Shown here: piece by piece, positions 1,868 to 56,616 of the stretch
Layout: the number at the start of each line of letters is the position of its first letter
How positions within the stretch are numbered: the stretch's first letter is position 1
Assembly: GCA_030678995.1 (NCBI GenBank)
Contig: JAUXTQ010000017.1
Coordinates: forward strand, 1-64,000
Length of the DNA: 64,000 bases
Source of the DNA: Caulobacter sp.
Lineage (GTDB): Bacteria; Pseudomonadota; Alphaproteobacteria; Caulobacterales; Caulobacteraceae
Reading direction: 5' to 3'
Translations under genes and position numbers: made by a program
The notes under the pieces: generated by a model
The model's database searches: none
Seen by the model: the letters and a program-made list of their open reading frames with translations, nothing else
What the model was told of the DNA's origin: nothing

Positions 1868-3151
1868 ATGAGCGGACATTCGACCTATCAACCGAGCAAC
1901 GGCTTCGCCCGCTGGCTTGACGCGCGTCTGCCCGTCGGCCGTCTGGTCTGGGACAGCTTCGTCGACTATCCGACGCCGCGGAACCTGAACTACTGGTGGA
2001 CCTTCGGCGGCATCCTGTCGCTCTGCCTGGGCGTCCAGATCGTCACCGGCATTGTGCTGGCGATGCACTACACGCCCAGCGCCGCGGCGGCCTTCACCTC
2101 GGTCGAGCACATCATGCGCGACGTGAACTACGGCTGGCTGCTGCGCTACATGCACTCCAATGGCGGGTCGATGTTCTTCATCGCCGTCTACATCCACATG
2201 CTCCGCGGCGTGTACTACGGGTCCTACAAGGCCCCGCGCGAGGTGCTGTGGATCCTCGGCTGCGTGATTTACGGCCTGATGATGGCCACGGCCTTCATGG
2301 GCTACGTCCTGCCCTGGGGCCAGATGAGCTTCCACGGCGCGGTGGTCATCACCAACCTGCTGGGCGCCTTCCCGGTGGTCGGCGAGGCCATCACCACCCT
2401 GCTGTGGGGCGGTTTCGCGGTCGACGAGCCGACGCTCAAGCGCTTCTTCTCGCTGCACTACCTGCTGCCATTCATGATCGCAGGCGTGGTGATCCTGCAC
2501 GTCTGGGCGCTGCATGTGGTCGGCCAGAACAACCCGACCGGGATCGAGCCCAGGTCCAAGGCCGACACCCTGCCGTTCACCCCCTACGCGACGGTGAAGG
2601 ACGGCTTCGCGATGAGCCTGTTCCTGATCCTCTTCGCGGTGTTCATCTTCTACATGCCCAACGCTCTGGGCCACCCGGACAACTACGTCCGCGCCGACCC
2701 GCTGGTGACGCCGCAGCACATCGTGCCCGAATGGTACTTCCTGCCGTTCTACGCGATCCTGCGCGCGGTGCCGGACAAGCTGATGGGCGTGCTGGCCATG
2801 TTCGGCTCGATCGCCGTCATCTTCGCCCTGCCCTGGCTGGACACGTCGAAGGTGAAGTCGATGCGCTATCGCCCGCAGGCCAAGCTCTACTTCTTCATCT
2901 TCCTGGTCGTGTGCGTGATCCTCGGCTTCTGCGGCGCCAAGCTGCCGGACGACCAGGTGATCCCGGGCCTGACGACCATCAAGGTCTTCGACTCCGATCT
3001 GAACAGCTTCGTCTGGCTGTCGCGCTTCTCCACCCTCTACTACTTCGCCTACTTCCTGCTGGTGATGCCGCTGCTGGGTCTCTTCGAGAAGCCCCTGCCC
3101 ACGCCTGAAACCATCTCCTCGCCGGTTCTCGGCGGCGACAAGAAGGACTGA
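1868..3151 (+). CDS. petB: Cytochrome b subunit of the bc1 complex
   Basis: 427 residues with eight or so hydrophobic segments; the membrane core of complex III, carrying haems bL and bH and both quinone sites. Landmarks are [16 protein letters not shown] (histidine-containing helix B), [15 protein letters not shown], the paired-histidine helix D (SLHYLLPF...HVWALHVVG) and the Qo-site [13 protein letters not shown]. Middle gene of petABC, six bases from each neighbour. Confidence 0.97.
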
Positions 3152-3157
3152 GCCCCG

Positions 3158-4000
3158 ATGCTGCGCAAAGTCACCCTGCTCGCGGCGGCGCTGTTCCTGG
3201 TTGGCGGCCCGGCCCTGGCGTCAAGCAAGGCCCACGCGCCGCGCGAAGTCGCCTTCAGCTTCGAGGGGCCTTTCGGCCACTTTGACGCCGCCCAGCTTCA
3301 GCGGGGCTACAAGGTCTATCGCGAGGTTTGCTCGGCCTGCCACAGCATGGACCTGCTGGCCTTCCGGAACCTCGGCGACAAGGGCGGGCCGTTCTTCGAT
3401 CCGAAGTACCCCAACGCGAACGACAACCCGGTGGTCAAGGCGCTCGCCGCCGAGGCCCAGATCAACGACATCGACGGCGAGACCGGCGATGCGATGAAGC
3501 GCCCCGGCATCCCCGCTGACCGTTTCCCGGCGCCCTTCGCCAACGCCGCGGCGGCCAAGGCCGGCAACAACGGCATCGTCCCCCCGGACCTGTCGCTGAT
3601 CGCCAAGGCCCGGGCCGGCGGCCCCGAGTACGTCGCCAGCCTGCTGCAGGGCTACGTCGCCGCGCCGGCCGGCCTGACCGTGCCCGCCGGCCTCAACTAC
3701 AACGCCTGGTTCCCGGGCGATGTGTCCGCCGGCTGGACCGGCGACCATGGCCACGTTCCGCCGGGCGGCTTCATCGCCATGGCCCAGCCGCTGACGGCCG
3801 GGCAGGTCTCGTTCGACGACGGGACCAAGTCGACCCTGCGCCAGCAGGCCGAGGACGTCGCCGCCTTCCTGATGTGGGCCGCCGAGCCCAAGATGGAGGA
3901 GCGCAAGCAGATGGGCTTCTCGGTGCTGATCTTCCTGATCCTGTTCTCGGGGCTGACCTACGCCAGCTACCGCCGGGTCTGGCGCAACGAGAGCCACTAG
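3158..4000 (+). CDS. petC: Cytochrome c1 of the bc1 complex
   Basis: 280 residues. A signal peptide (residues 1-22, ending ALASS) exports the haem domain to the periplasm. The haem c attachment site CSACH is at 58-62, and a C-terminal helix (about 254-270, [18 protein letters not shown]) anchors it. It accepts electrons from the Rieske centre and passes them to a soluble or membrane cytochrome c. Last gene of petABC, followed by a strong terminator at 4024-4059. Confidence 0.96.
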
Positions 4001-4023
4001 GCGCTTGCGCCGTCCATGAGTTC

Positions 4024-4059
4024 GAAGGCCCGGGATCCATCCCGGGCCTTCTTCATTTT
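4024..4059 (+). terminator. Rho-independent terminator of petABC
   Basis: Perfect 12-bp stem GAAGGCCCGGGA / TCCCGGGCCTTC (4024-4035 and 4040-4051) with a TCCA loop, followed by TTCATTTT. It lies 24 bp after the petC stop. Confidence 0.85.
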
Positions 4060-4081
4060 GGGCTCAACCACAACCGGCCGC

Positions 4082-4176
4082 GGCTAATTCGGGGACAGTT
4101 TACCTATTTCGAATCCACTCCGAGCGCCGAACCTGGGCCGCTGGGACGAAATAGGTAAACTGTCCCCGAATTAGCC
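4082..4176. repeat. REP-like long inverted repeat, family 1, copy 1
   Basis: Two perfectly complementary 30-bp arms (4082-4111 and 4147-4176), each containing GGGGACAGTTTACCTATTT or its complement, separated by a 35-bp loop. The arm sequence recurs at 24349-24443 around a different loop. Such GGGGACAG-type palindromes are, from memory, typical of REP elements mobilised by REP-associated tyrosine transposases; none is encoded here. It sits between petC and the 3' end of the next minus-strand gene. Confidence 0.85.
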
Positions 4177-4181
4177 CGTCT

Positions 4182-4961
4182 TCACCCGGGGCTGAGCCAC
4201 AGCCGGCCGCGGCCGATGTCGAGGCGGATACGCCAGCGGGACCACAGGTCCGTGCCCAGGGCGCCGGCGAGGGCCTGATCCAGGTCAGGGGCCAGGGCGG
4301 CGGAGGTCTCCTCGAACAGCCGGCCGCCCATCGACAGGGCCCGCAGCCGGCCGGGCGCGATCCCGCGCGGCGCTTCGCTGGCCGCCTTGCTCGGGGGCCG
4401 GAAGTCGGCGGCGGTCAGGCGGACCGACGCCCGGGAACTGAAGTCGATGGCGAACAGACCCTGCCGCGCCCGCCGGTCGTCCGACACGGCGGCGGTCAGC
4501 ACTGGAATCCCGCCGGCCGTGGCCAGCCGCAGCATCTGCGTCCCGCGCCCCGGCGTACGGCCCGCACCGGTGGCGAACCGCACCTTGCAAGGGGCGAAGT
4601 CGATGTCGACGACGAACCGCCCCAGCACGTCCGCGCCGATCACCCCGGCGATGGGGGTGGCGAATCCTGGCGCGCGGCCGTCCAGGTCGGCCACGGTCAC
4701 CTCCAGCCCGGCCAGCGACACCCCGGCGAAACGGGCCGAGGCGGGGAATACCGCTGGCAGGCCCTCCATCTGCGCCCGGGTCTCGTGCAACAGGGTGTGC
4801 GGGGCGGAGGGGTCCAGCAGCCAGTCGCCCGCGACGCCGCCGACCTCGGCGGCGATCACCACCGCCCCGTTCTCGAACCAGCAGGCCGCTTCGCCCGCCC
4901 GCGCTGTCTGGGCGCCGAGGGCTGTCAACAGCACGGCGAGAAGCGGCGCGCGCAGGGGCAT
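4182..4961 (-). CDS. Exported aspartic-protease-like protein, catalytic motif degenerate
   Basis: 259 residues with a signal peptide (1-22, ending ARA-GEA). Two similar halves are visible, each with a candidate catalytic loop (WLLDPSAPHT; FAIDFSSRAS) and a downstream flap or hydrophobic-glycine unit (GVIGADVLGRFVVDIDF; GALGTDLWSRWRIRLDIG). This is the duplicated layout of pepsin/retropepsin-like domains. The usual D-T/S-G triad is replaced by DPS and DFS, so peptidase activity is doubtful. Family assignment is by pattern only. Its stop lies 6 bp from the REP-like repeat. Confidence 0.6.
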   Translation of the reverse strand: MPLRAPLLAVLLTALGAQTARAGEAACWFENGAVVIAAEVGGVAGDWLLDPSAPHTLLHETRAQMEGLPAVFPASARFAGVSLAGLEVTVADLDGRAPGFATPIAGVIGADVLGRFVVDIDFAPCKVRFATGAGRTPGRGTQMLRLATAGGIPVLTAAVSDDRRARQGLFAIDFSSRASVRLTAADFRPPSKAASEAPRGIAPGRLRALSMGGRLFEETSAALAPDLDQALAGALGTDLWSRWRIRLDIGRGRLWLSPG

Positions 4962-53584: not shown

Positions 53585-53617
53585 AAAGAAAACCCCCGCC
53601 GGACGAACCGGCGGGGG
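53585..53617 (-). terminator. Rho-independent terminator of ctrA
   Basis: Minus-strand stem CCCCCGCCGG / CCGGCGGGGG (10 bp; 53593-53602 and 53608-53617) with a 5-base loop, followed by TTTTCTTTT. Thirty bp past the ctrA stop. Confidence 0.85.
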
Positions 53618-53647
53618 CTGTTACGCGACGCTACTAAAACCGGTGGA

Positions 53648-54343
53648 TCAGGCGGCGACGATGGCTTCCTGCGGGTCGCGCAGCACATAGCCGCGGCCCC
53701 AGACGGTTTCGATGTAGTTGTCACCCTCGCAGGCGTGCGCCAGTTTCTTGCGCAGCTTGCAGATGAACACGTCGATGATCTTCAGCTCGGGCTCGTCCAT
53801 GCCGCCGTAGAGGTGGTTGAGGAACATCTCCTTGGTCAGGGTCGTGCCCTTCCGCAGGGAGAGGAGTTCCAGCATCTGGTATTCCTTGCCGGTCAGGTGA
53901 ACGCGCAGGCCGTTCACCTCCACCGTCTTGGCGTCCAGGTTCACGGCGATCTCGCCGGTCTGGATGACCGCCTGGGCATGACCCTTGGAGCGGCGCACCA
54001 CCGCGTGGATGCGGGCGACCATCTCGTCCTTGTGGAACGGCTTGGTCATGTAGTCGTCGGCGCCGCCGCCCAGGGTCTTCACCTTGGTGTCGATCTCGGC
54101 AGAGCCGCTGAGGATCATGATCGGCGTGTTGATCTTGCCGTTGCGCAGTGTGCGCAGCACGTCCATGCCGCTCATGTCCGGCAGGTTCAGATCCAGCAGG
54201 ATGAGGTCGTAGTCGTAGATCTTGCCCAGATCGACGCCCTCCTCGCCCAGGTCCGTCGTGTAGACGTTGAACCCTTCGGACTTGAGCATCAGCTCGATGG
54301 TCTGCGCCGTCGCGCTGTCATCCTCAATCAACAGTACGCGCAT
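53648..54343 (-). CDS. ctrA: Cell cycle response regulator CtrA
   Basis: 231 residues, the exact length of Caulobacter CtrA. Receiver domain with phosphoacceptor Asp51 in [13 protein letters not shown] and Lys in TKPFHK; DNA-binding OmpR/PhoB domain with [19 protein letters not shown] and [12 protein letters not shown]. The C-terminal AA is the ClpXP degradation signal seen in the Caulobacter protein. CtrA silences the origin and activates division, flagellar and pilus genes. Upstream is a ten-fold GANTC cluster and TTAA motifs; a strong terminator follows the gene. Confidence 0.98.
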
Positions 54344-54685
54344 CGATCCCCTCCCCGCGGCACCCGCGGTTACGATTTCAGGCGAGGCGGAATCCGCCTC
54401 CGGAGCTCAATTCCGACATTGGAATTAAGCTGCTTTAAGACTGGTTAATGCTGAACGGCCCTTCGAAAAGAATCGTTAAGCCGATTTGCGAATCGGGGGC
54501 AAGCGACCATCTCGCGGCGTCGAGTCACTGCAGGGATGACTCTTTCGTGATCGCGGATTCCCGAGGGAATCCCGTGGGAATCCGTGAAGCCTTGCAGCGG
54601 TGAGGGAATGGAGTCGCTGGGGCGCCCGGGGGCCGGCTGCATTCGGGGCGGCGCCCGCCCCGTGAGTCAATCTGACGCGGTCGGG
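54344..54685. promoter_or_regulatory. ctrA upstream control region with GANTC cluster
   Basis: No gene. Ten GANTC (CcrM-type) sites at 54390, 54470, 54490, 54522, 54538, 54556, 54567, 54578, 54611 and 54664 in about 280 bp; roughly one is expected by my estimate at this base composition. Three TTAA motifs lie about 10 bp apart at 54424, 54435 and 54445 near the gene, reminiscent of CtrA binding sites (consensus TTAA-N7-TTAA) but with 6- to 7-bp gaps. In Caulobacter the ctrA P1 promoter is repressed by GANTC methylation and P2 is CtrA-activated. Confidence 0.7.
54644..54662. repeat. Short hairpin downstream of the HigA-like antitoxin
   Basis: CGGGGCGG-CGC-CCGCCCCG, 8-bp arms. No T-tract on either side, so a terminator role is weak. 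Confidence 0.35.
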
Positions 54686-55012
54686 TTACGCGACGGCCCG
54701 GCTGCGCGCGACAGGATCTCGCGGCGTCACCGACAGAGTCACGTTAATGTCCCGGCCCAGGCGGTCGAGGATCATCATCAGCCGGTCGATGGTGAATCTG
54801 TCCAGTCTCACGTTGCGGATGCGTGAGAAATCGGCGGCGGCGATGCCGGTCAGGGCTTCCGCCGCCCGTACTGTCAGCTTGTCGGCGTCGAGCGCCTTGA
54901 TAATCGCGGCCGCCAGGAGGGCTCTGAGCTGTTGTCGGTCAGCGTCTTCGACGCCGAAGTCGCGGAAAATGTTGCCACTGCCCCGGACGACTTCGAGGGG
55001 TTCGTCGCTCAT
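54686..55012 (-). CDS. XRE-type antitoxin (HigA-like)
   Basis: 108 residues. LTVRAAEALTGIAAADFSRI with RNVRLDRFTIDRLMMILDRL is the helix-turn-helix of HTH_37/HigA-like antitoxins, C-terminal to a leader. Its ATG overlaps the toxin stop by 4 bp (ATGA), giving toxin-first order as in higBA. Expected to neutralise the toxin and repress the operon. Confidence 0.83.
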   Translation of the reverse strand: MSDEPLEVVRGSGNIFRDFGVEDADRQQLRALLAAAIIKALDADKLTVRAAEALTGIAAADFSRIRNVRLDRFTIDRLMMILDRLGRDINVTLSVTPRDPVARSRAVA

Positions 55013-55371
55013 GAATGGGTCTCCTTGAGGCGTTTGATCCGGGCCTTGATGACGTCGATCTCCGGCTTGGGCGTGGCGATTCCCGAAATCGACTTTTTCT
55101 GAAAGGCGTGGACCACCCAGATGTCGTCTCCGATCTGAAGTCCGTAGACCACTCGCCAGGCGTCTCCGCGTTCTCTGATCGCCAGTTCCCAAACGCCGGC
55201 GCCAAGTCCGGACAGTGGCTTGGCGATGTCTGGCGTTTCACCCTCCGCAATCACCGCCAGCGCGCGAAAAGTGCGGAGCCGGGCGTTCGCCGGAAAGTCC
55301 GCGAAGGCTTTTCGCGCCGCCTTCACCCAACTGATCTGGCGCAGGCCTCGCGCAGGCCTTGTCGTGGTCAT
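55009..55371 (-). CDS. HigB/Gp49-family toxin (RelE superfamily)
   Basis: 120 residues. SWVKAARKAFADFPANARLR, KPLSGLGAGVWELAIRERGD and WRVVYGLQIGDDIWVVHAFQ followed by KKS are the phage Gp49/HigB pattern with the conserved K/R near the C-terminus (FQKKSIS). RelE-fold toxins cut mRNA on ribosomes. First gene of the pair with the HigA-like antitoxin. A TTGTCG-N10-CGACAA inverted repeat spans the start codon (55359-55380). Confidence 0.83.
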   Translation of the reverse strand: MTTTRPARGLRQISWVKAARKAFADFPANARLRTFRALAVIAEGETPDIAKPLSGLGAGVWELAIRERGDAWRVVYGLQIGDDIWVVHAFQKKSISGIATPKPEIDVIKARIKRLKETHS

Positions 55372-55380
55372 ATTCGACAA
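55359..55380. promoter_or_regulatory. Candidate operator at the HigB-like toxin start
   Basis: TTGTCG-N10-CGACAA spanning the toxin ATG. Antitoxin binding here could repress translation and transcription together. Confidence 0.4.
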
Positions 55381-55431
55381 CACTCGATGCAATGTCAAGG
55401 CGTCCCCAGACACATACAACCGAGAGTACAA

Positions 55432-56616
55432 TCAAGCCAGTTCTGCCAGATCAGCCCGCACCGCCCCCGCGATGAACCCGCCGCCCAGCACGCGGCTCGG
55501 CTCCTCGGGCGCATAGAGGACGCAGGCCTGGCCGGGGGCGACGCCTTCTTCCAGGGTATCCAGCGCCACGCCCACCACGCCGTCGATCATCGCCAGGCGG
55601 CCGGCGACCGGCTCGCGGGTTGAGCGCACGCGCGCCAGCACGGGCCGGCCGATGGCGGCGGCCGCGGCGATGGTCGCCTCCTCGCCCAGCCAGTTGTCGT
55701 CCTTCAGGGTCAGGGCGCGGGTCAGCAGGGCCTCGCGCGGGCCGACGATCACCTGGCGAGCATCGGCGTCGATGCGCACCACGAACAGCGGATCACCGCC
55801 GCCGATGTTCAACCCACGCCGCTGGCCGATGGTGTAGCGGGTGACGCCCTCGTGGCGGCCGATCACCCGGCCGTCCAGATGCACGATGTCGCCCGGCTCG
55901 GCGCCGTGCGGGCGCAGGCGGTCGATGACCGTGTGGTACTTGCCCTCCGGCACGAAGCAGATGTCCTGGCTGTCGGGCTTGTCGGCCGCCGACAGGTCCA
56001 TCCGCGCCGCCGCGCCGCGCACCGCGGGCTTGGGCAGCCCGCCCAGCGGGAAGCGCAGGAAGTCCAGCTGCTCGCGGGTGGTGGCGAACAGGAAGTAGCT
56101 CTGGTCGCGGTTCGCATCGACCGCGCGGTGCAGGGTCGGCCCGCCTGGCCCGTCCTCGCGGCGTACATAGTGGCCGGTGGCCATGGCGGCGGCGCCCAGG
56201 TCCCGCGCCACGTCCAGCAGGTCGCGGAACTTGACGGTTTGATTGCAGCGGATGCAGGGCACCGGCGTCTCGCCGCGCAGATAGGCGTCGGCGAACTCCT
56301 CGATCACCTGGTCGCGGAAGCGGCTCTCGTAGTCGAGGACGTAGTGCGGGATGCCGATCGCCTCGGCGGCCTGGCGGGCGTCAAGGATGTCCTGGCCGGC
56401 GCAGCAGGCGCCCTTCTTCTGGATCGCCGCCCCGTGGTCGTACAGCTGCAGGGTCACGCCCACGACGTCATAGCCGGCGCGGGCCAGCAGGGCGGCGGTC
56501 ACCGTCGAATCCACCCCGCCCGACATGGCCGCGACCACCCGCGACCCGACGGGCAGGCCGACGGCCGCGCGCACGACGTCGTCGGCGATCTCCAGAGAGG
56601 GCAGGGGCGCGTTCAT
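55432..56616 (-). CDS. mnmA: tRNA-specific 2-thiouridylase
   Basis: 394 residues. PP-loop [14 protein letters not shown] (30-43), the first catalytic Cys in PCIRCN and the second in [12 protein letters not shown], plus GLNIGGG and the C-terminal beta barrel. Adds 2-thio to U34 of tRNA-Lys, -Glu and -Gln. It is bracketed by two toxin-antitoxin modules on the same strand. Confidence 0.95.

Follow-up and report, generated by a model that had tools for sequence, protein, structure and literature searches.

Replication is tied to ctrA transcription by a textbook methylation clock, worked out from a single site of a single species. What, then, should be made of a ctrA upstream region in which ten GANTC sites are crowded together, and do all ten of them form a single device? 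The question arose in a stretch of 64,000 nucleotides from a Caulobacter sp. (the window, that is, the whole stretch of DNA analysed here), for which an earlier note had listed ten GANTC sites from 54390 to 54664, all of them exact on recount.

Results

Density of GANTC upstream of ctrA

The features of the region are collected in Table 1. As background we used a sample of the own genome comprising the window and 20 stretches of 20 kb (464 kb, 12.8% of the 3.62-Mb assembly), which contained 712 GANTC, or 1.53 per kb, corresponding to 0.43 expected per 279 bp. The densest 279-bp stretch of the 464-kb sample was the ctrA cluster with its 10 sites, and the next place had 6. Monomer shuffles of 54344-54685 (n = 5000) averaged 1.17 sites and never exceeded 6, against 10 observed, so the earlier estimate of about one site by chance was right for the local composition. 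The Poisson probability of at least 10 sites is 3.4e-11 per counting window and about 1.2e-4 after multiplication by 3.62 Mb. Chance origin of the cluster is excluded.

Table 1. Features of the ctrA locus; distances are from the ctrA ATG unless P1 is named.
Feature	Position	Strand	Remarks
ctrA coding sequence, 231 aa	53648..54343	-	ATG at 54343; NCBIfam CtrA equivalog, 411 bits (cut-off 350)
Intergenic stretch, ctrA to next minus-strand ORF	54344-54685		
Putative 5'-UTR hairpin GAGGCGG-ATT-CCGCCTC, loop creating GANTC 54390-54394	54384..54400	-	both arms altered together in L008 and L009
Two overlapping CtrA boxes TTAA-N6-TTAA, -105 and -95	54425..54448	-	putative P2 activator site, by position relative to PMC4287350
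Second P1 GANTC, -131	54470..54474	-	overlaps the -10 (about -9 relative to the inferred P1 start); adjoins the TTAA half-site
CtrA half-site TTAA, -14 of inferred P1	54476..54479	-	seen in the sequence; repressor position in C. crescentus according to PMC4287350
First P1 GANTC, -151	54490..54494	-	GATTC-N10-TTAA, the spacing described in PMC4287350; homologous to the P1 methylation site of C. crescentus (-29 of P1)
GANTC, -183	54522..54526	-	N varies between relatives, GA/TC fixed in 6/6
GANTC, -199, inside conserved element GATCACGAAAGANTCATC	54538..54542	-	own genome: one exact copy, one other place with 3 mismatches
GANTC triplet, -217, -228 and -239, 11-bp spacing	54556..54582	-	6/6 own clade
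GANTC, -272	54611..54615	-	4/6 own-clade species
GANTC, -325	54664..54668	-	4/6 own-clade species

Base composition and coding constraint were also considered. The intergenic stretch has 62% GC against 69% overall, and non-ORF DNA of the 464-kb sample carries 2.40 GANTC per kb against 1.43 in ORF DNA. Of non-ORF runs measuring 80 bp or longer the sample has 172; the one at ctrA held 11 GANTC, followed by three with 6, 4 and 3. Because of a chance ORF opposite ctrA, the run at ctrA was taken as 54449-55014, and its count leaves out 54390 and takes in two further sites, at 54736 and 54794, within the neighbouring gene. The earlier note had proposed comparing the cluster with the rest of the genome, and over the sampled 12.8% and the 172 non-ORF runs no other stretch matched it. 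A control with the reversed pattern was set aside as uninformative, since reversal turns GANTC into CTNAG, which is not a comparable sequence.

The genome-wide number of GANTC pairs at 11-bp spacing was 21, including several copies of one repeated motif, and for this reason the spacing of the triplet is not special by itself. Another triplet at the same spacing was found elsewhere in the own genome (L142:1021-1047). Across the window (1-64000) GANTC is strongly depleted, with 110 sites against 271 in dinucleotide shuffles. The search of 53600-55450 for known RNA families gave no match at Rfam gathering scores.

Conservation in related genomes

We searched 61 genomes (our own and 60 relatives), of which 59 had a ctrA orthologue, the best matches in G015 and G018 being too weak for ctrA, and compared the DNA upstream of ctrA in these 59 (30 + 29; just 94 bp at L184). 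Within 300 bp of the start, the own clade (the source genome and five relatives, six species in all; L005-L009 and L014) had 8 or 9 GANTC, and the sister loci had 7 (L010 and L011), 6 (L013) and 4 (L012). The other 25 members of the genus had 1 to 4, and 24 genomes of other families in the order had 0 to 7. Among 80 named loci, four Brevundimonas had 4 to 6 and six Phenylobacterium 3 to 8 within 350 bp, many Rhizobiales had 3 to 7 at recurring positions, and some had 0 to 2. The highest 300-bp count among the loci examined was nine, here and in three relatives, and L060-L114 reach 7. Such counts indicate that several GANTC upstream of ctrA are common. PMC8116508, in its part on these promoters, gives at least one motif in all its ctrA promoters of Sphingomonadales and Caulobacterales, whereas the order relatives L180, L192, L194 and L196 had no GANTC within 300 bp of ctrA.

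The complete genome G019 (G019:C1), with 8 sites in 350 bp, has ctrA at about 54% of the half-chromosome from dnaA, and in G003, G005, G013 and G026, with 1 to 3 sites, ctrA lies at 34-39%. With one case against four and symmetric arms assumed, a relation between chromosome position and site number is a lead only.

The stretch from -250 to -154 of ctrA has five GANTC in each of the six own-clade species. Once the upstream DNA was aligned, 20/20 GA/TC columns of these five sites (54522-54582) proved invariant, as did 2/5 N columns and 35/72 of the other columns in the stretch (Fisher p = 6e-6). Joint shifts of the five sites by 1 to 96 bases gave a mean of 11.7/20 and a maximum of 17, none of them reaching 20, and when the conserved -199 block was left out the difference held (16/16 against 22/58, p = 3e-6). 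The cluster had been picked for its density in one of these six related species, a choice that has no bearing on its conservation in the other five. N differs between species at -239, -217 and -183 with GANTC intact, and the flanks change at four of the five sites while GA/TC does not. A free N within a kept GANTC is the pattern expected for selection on the CcrM site itself, and, judged from this alignment, neutral drift is excluded for the five sites. Over the wider stretch from -345 to -154, including the two less-shared sites, the invariant columns were 23/28 against 45/146; in the conserved P1/P2 part they were 12/12 against 110/133, a difference that is not significant (p = 0.11). The comparison with close relatives, likewise proposed in the earlier note, has thus found the cluster conserved in them.

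Two of the upstream features have a form of their own. The element GATCACGAAAGANTC at 54538-54552, about -200 of ctrA, occurs as NATCAC-N4-GANTC in 16/16 loci of the own clade, the sisters and Phenylobacterium; the 19-base form of this element has a single exact copy in the own genome and is therefore possibly a private binding site. Within the triplet at 54556-54582 lies an inverted repeat that reads GATTCCC-TC-GGGAATC in the own genome and GAATCCC-NN-GGGATTC in its five relatives; the triplet is absent from the sister loci L010-L013.

The P1 promoter module

The C. crescentus ctrA promoter has its P1 methylation site at -29 and the CtrA half-site TTAA at -14 (PMC4287350). Since the sites at 54490 and 54476 have the same spacing as in C. 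crescentus, we place the P1 start near 54465, which gives the GANTC at 54470 a position of about -9; P1, P2 and the transcription starts were placed by homology only. With the start position inferred in this way, the region has a GANTC at -29 and a TTAA at -14 upstream of ctrA. GcrA in vitro covers -35 to +7 of the fully methylated ctrA P1 (PMC3667746), and the second P1 site falls inside this stretch. Flanks of the form YGAKTCK were found in all six own-clade species at the P1 sites 54490 and 54470 only, and at the -183 site in two species. Such flanks have been proposed for GcrA activation in C. crescentus, a preference that, as PMC7987155 describes it, was not seen with B. subvibrioides GcrA.

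We defined the two-site P1 module as two GANTC separated by 14 or 15 bases. It was present in 23/28 Caulobacteraceae-like loci outside the crescentus-like group (own clade 6/6, sisters 4/4, L015-L017 3/3, Phenylobacterium 4/6, Brevundimonas 4/4, Asticcacaulis and others 2/4, L055 0/1) but in 0/24 crescentus-like loci, and it was absent from all 28 loci of other families (24 + the order relatives L200-L203). The label crescentus-like means a match to the published description, one GAnTC in P1 (PMC3667746), and the group so labelled includes C. hibisci (L045) and no locus named C. crescentus or C. vibrioides. The ctrA tree and the module count were made without L035, L036, L040 and L042 (duplicates of L007, L011, L018 and L031, identical to them over 2 kb) and L055 (partial ctrA); L055 and L200-L203 were added to the module tally afterwards. 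The first P1 site is present in 6/6 own-clade and 23/24 crescentus-like loci, and L055 has the first site without the second.

The earlier note had named a single GANTC in the C. crescentus P1, which agrees with PMC3667746, and P. zucineum is described as having P1, P2 and the GAnTC motif in common with C. crescentus (PMC2529317). Because the pair occurs in 23/28 of the others but in none of the 24 crescentus-like loci, the model promoter looks like a reduced form; the one-site P1 of the model species seems derived, the two-site P1 being apparently older. At L028, the earliest crescentus-like branch in the ctrA tree, the two P1 places read GATTT and GATTG, as if both sites had been lost by single changes. 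In Brevundimonas poindexterae the two-site module is intact (L049:9741-9764), and its distance upstream from ctrA exceeds that in the other three Brevundimonas by about 120 bp, as an insert would make it.

Sites unlike the rest

The site at 54390 has another character. It arises in the loop of a putative hairpin that sits in the inferred P2 leader, and both arms of this hairpin change together in the two relatives named in Table 1. A stem of the form GGCGG-N3-6-CCGCC is kept in 22/24 crescentus-like loci (not L022 and L028), with a GANTC there in 6/24. C. crescentus also has a GAnTC after the P2 start (PMC3667746), and its P2 leader has a predicted stem that hides the ribosome site and is bound by the RNA CcnA (PMC8959179). 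We therefore rejected all ten sites as one device, 54390 belonging to a hairpin with paired stem changes. The single cluster of the earlier note is not uniform in other respects either, since only four of the six species have 54611 and 54664, and the YGAKTCK flanks are common to all six at the P1 pair alone; the note's interpretation is accordingly supported in part.

Next to this hairpin, at 54404-54431, an inverted repeat AGCTTAATTCC-N6-GGAATTGAGCT with 11-bp arms and one G-T pair lies over the inferred P2 core promoter. It was found in 5/6 own-clade species and is not the best stem in L008. In the space separating mnmA from the ctrA promoter, 54686-55371 encodes an HTH_37 and Gp49-like pair that resembles a toxin-antitoxin system of the HigBA type. 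Immediately upstream of the promoter, L007 resembles the own genome and L008 and L009 differ from it.

Trans-acting factors and other GANTC clusters

The own genome encodes both proteins that a methylation-controlled ctrA promoter of the C. crescentus kind would call for, namely GcrA (C41:45197-45658; PF07750, E 4.1e-55) and a CcrM-type methylase (C18). The methylase combines an N6_N4_Mtase with a RAMA domain; among NCBIfam models it scores best with Caulobacter CcrM, and its 634 bits fall short of that model's cut-off of 830. The GcrA model PF07750 also matched the Sulfolobus acidocaldarius control genome, which was unexpected. Two ROS_MUCR (PF05443) genes are present; for C. crescentus, the relevant part of PMC7987155 reports that no MucR1/2 consensus was identified. 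The SeqA family (PF03925) had 0 matches in the own genome, which is 89.5% complete so that a missing gene is possible, and the E. coli control was positive.

The second-densest cluster of the sample, 5 sites in about 117 bp (L139:4752-4868, in G000:C51), lies upstream of ORF 2235-4733 (-). The product is an 832-aa PAS histidine kinase whose architecture looks like that of PleC, a regulator of the ctrA pathway; none of the NCBIfam models listed for the kinase is over its cut-off, and the PDB sequence matches do not name it. Orthologues of this PleC-like kinase were found in 39/41 genus genomes, three of them partial, and 30 such loci had 2 to 7 GANTC in up to 500 bp around the open-frame start. 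At dnaA, three GANTC lie in about 60 bp (L208:3071-3129), 200-260 bp upstream, and upstream of gcrA there is no GANTC within 1 kb.

Discussion

The cluster is real, is conserved as if selected, and is larger than the known multi-site ctrA promoters. Our favoured reading, which we consider probable, is that ctrA has here a promoter under the control of CcrM and GcrA whose complement of methylation sites is enlarged. By analogy with C. crescentus, CcrM would methylate the array late in the cycle, the replication fork would make all sites hemimethylated at once, and GcrA with sigma-70 at the P1 pair would fire P1 in the hemimethylated state; CtrA would then bind the TTAA between the pair, shut P1 and turn on P2. 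As for the upstream sites, they would most likely provide additional GcrA binding or make the hemimethylated interval longer and sharper, given that many of them have to be closed by an enzyme that acts distributively. Re-methylation by CcrM is indeed distributive (PMC3667746), which favours extra GcrA binding or a longer, less variable interval. Against this reading, the upstream sites are mostly without YGAKTCK flanks (a preference that B. subvibrioides GcrA does not show), some order relatives have no GANTC within 300 bp of ctrA, and the methylase scores under the Caulobacter CcrM cut-off.

A more specific idea, possible but tentative and in our judgement not likely, is a multi-site methylation clock, in which CcrM would close about nine sites independently and P1 would stay open until the last is closed, making the interval longer and less variable, and of which C. 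crescentus would have reduced the ancestral multi-site form to one mark. For independent closing at rate k, the computed mean is 1/k for one site against 2.8/k for nine, with a coefficient of variation of 1.0 against 0.44. Two published findings also weigh on the favoured reading as a whole. In C. crescentus, cells whose ctrA promoter could not be methylated showed no abnormal phenotype (PMC3973325), and any effect may thus be small; PMC2877005 states that a high number of promoter sites alone does not show methylation control.

Could the upstream GANTC serve something other than CcrM and GcrA? They may belong to binding sites of another protein, for instance MucR or some further factor that recognises GATCACGAAAGANTCATC or the 11-bp inverted repeats, and what matters would then be local hypomethylation and not methylation. 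The two ROS_MUCR genes, the conservation of the -200 element beyond its GANTC and the dyad symmetry of the triplet all speak for this, and MucR and CtrA can block GANTC methylation (PMC5172544). The motif of another protein would nevertheless be expected to fix its remaining letters too, whereas N changes at 3/5 sites and the flanks at four with GA/TC fixed, and the test holds without the -200 block; we consider this reading unlikely. An accident of AT-richer, weakly constrained intergenic DNA with a local GATTCCC duplication would be in keeping with the lower GC content of the region and the GANTC-richer non-ORF DNA, and the triplet could stem from such a duplication. This we hold to be very improbable, as the shuffles reach at most 6, none of the 171 other non-ORF runs compares, and the sites are conserved with a free N; on these grounds we regard an accidental origin as refuted both for the P1 pair and for the five sites upstream of it, although 54611 and 54664 may have arisen in this way.

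At oriC of E. coli, SeqA sequesters a cluster of hemimethylated GATC, and a protein of this kind might bind several hemimethylated sites at once and silence the promoter. The density here appears similar to that of the oriC cluster, and several spacings (11, 11, 20 and 32 bp) are near whole helical turns. We know, however, of no SeqA-like protein in alphaproteobacteria. Since PF03925 had no match in the own genome (89.5% complete) and the E. coli control was positive, SeqA sequestration was rejected, and a SeqA-like mechanism is the least probable of the readings, hardly to be expected at this promoter.

For a CcrM/GcrA-controlled promoter, the dense and preserved CcrM sites suggest that ctrA may read replication timing from many marks and not from one. 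Related promoters span one to nine sites, many of them apparently kept by selection in the own clade, and the role of site number and position becomes directly testable. It is also a warning that the C. crescentus ctrA promoter should not be taken as typical.

Comparison with known systems

Many sites of a solitary methylase in a short stretch are also found at E. coli oriC, although there both the methylase and the reader are different, and here no SeqA family match was found. A close likeness is to the C. crescentus ctrA P1 (PMC4287350, PMC3667746), with the GATTC at -29, the TTAA at -14, the CtrA box before P2 and a GANTC after the P2 start. In contrast to its one GANTC in P1, our locus has a second at about -9 and seven further upstream. 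Agrobacterium tumefaciens repABC/ori2, as far as PMC11514494 describes it, likewise has groups of three GANTC in promoters, single sites differing in effect, but it is a replication module, not ctrA, with fewer sites per promoter. Several CcrM motifs within 300 bp are shared with the alphaproteobacterial ctrA promoters of PMC8116508, and beyond those counts the parts of the literature covered by our search do not describe such a cluster at ctrA. The promoters counted there, in Sphingomonadales and Caulobacterales, have up to five or six CcrM motifs per 300 bp of ctrA, against nine here and in three relatives.
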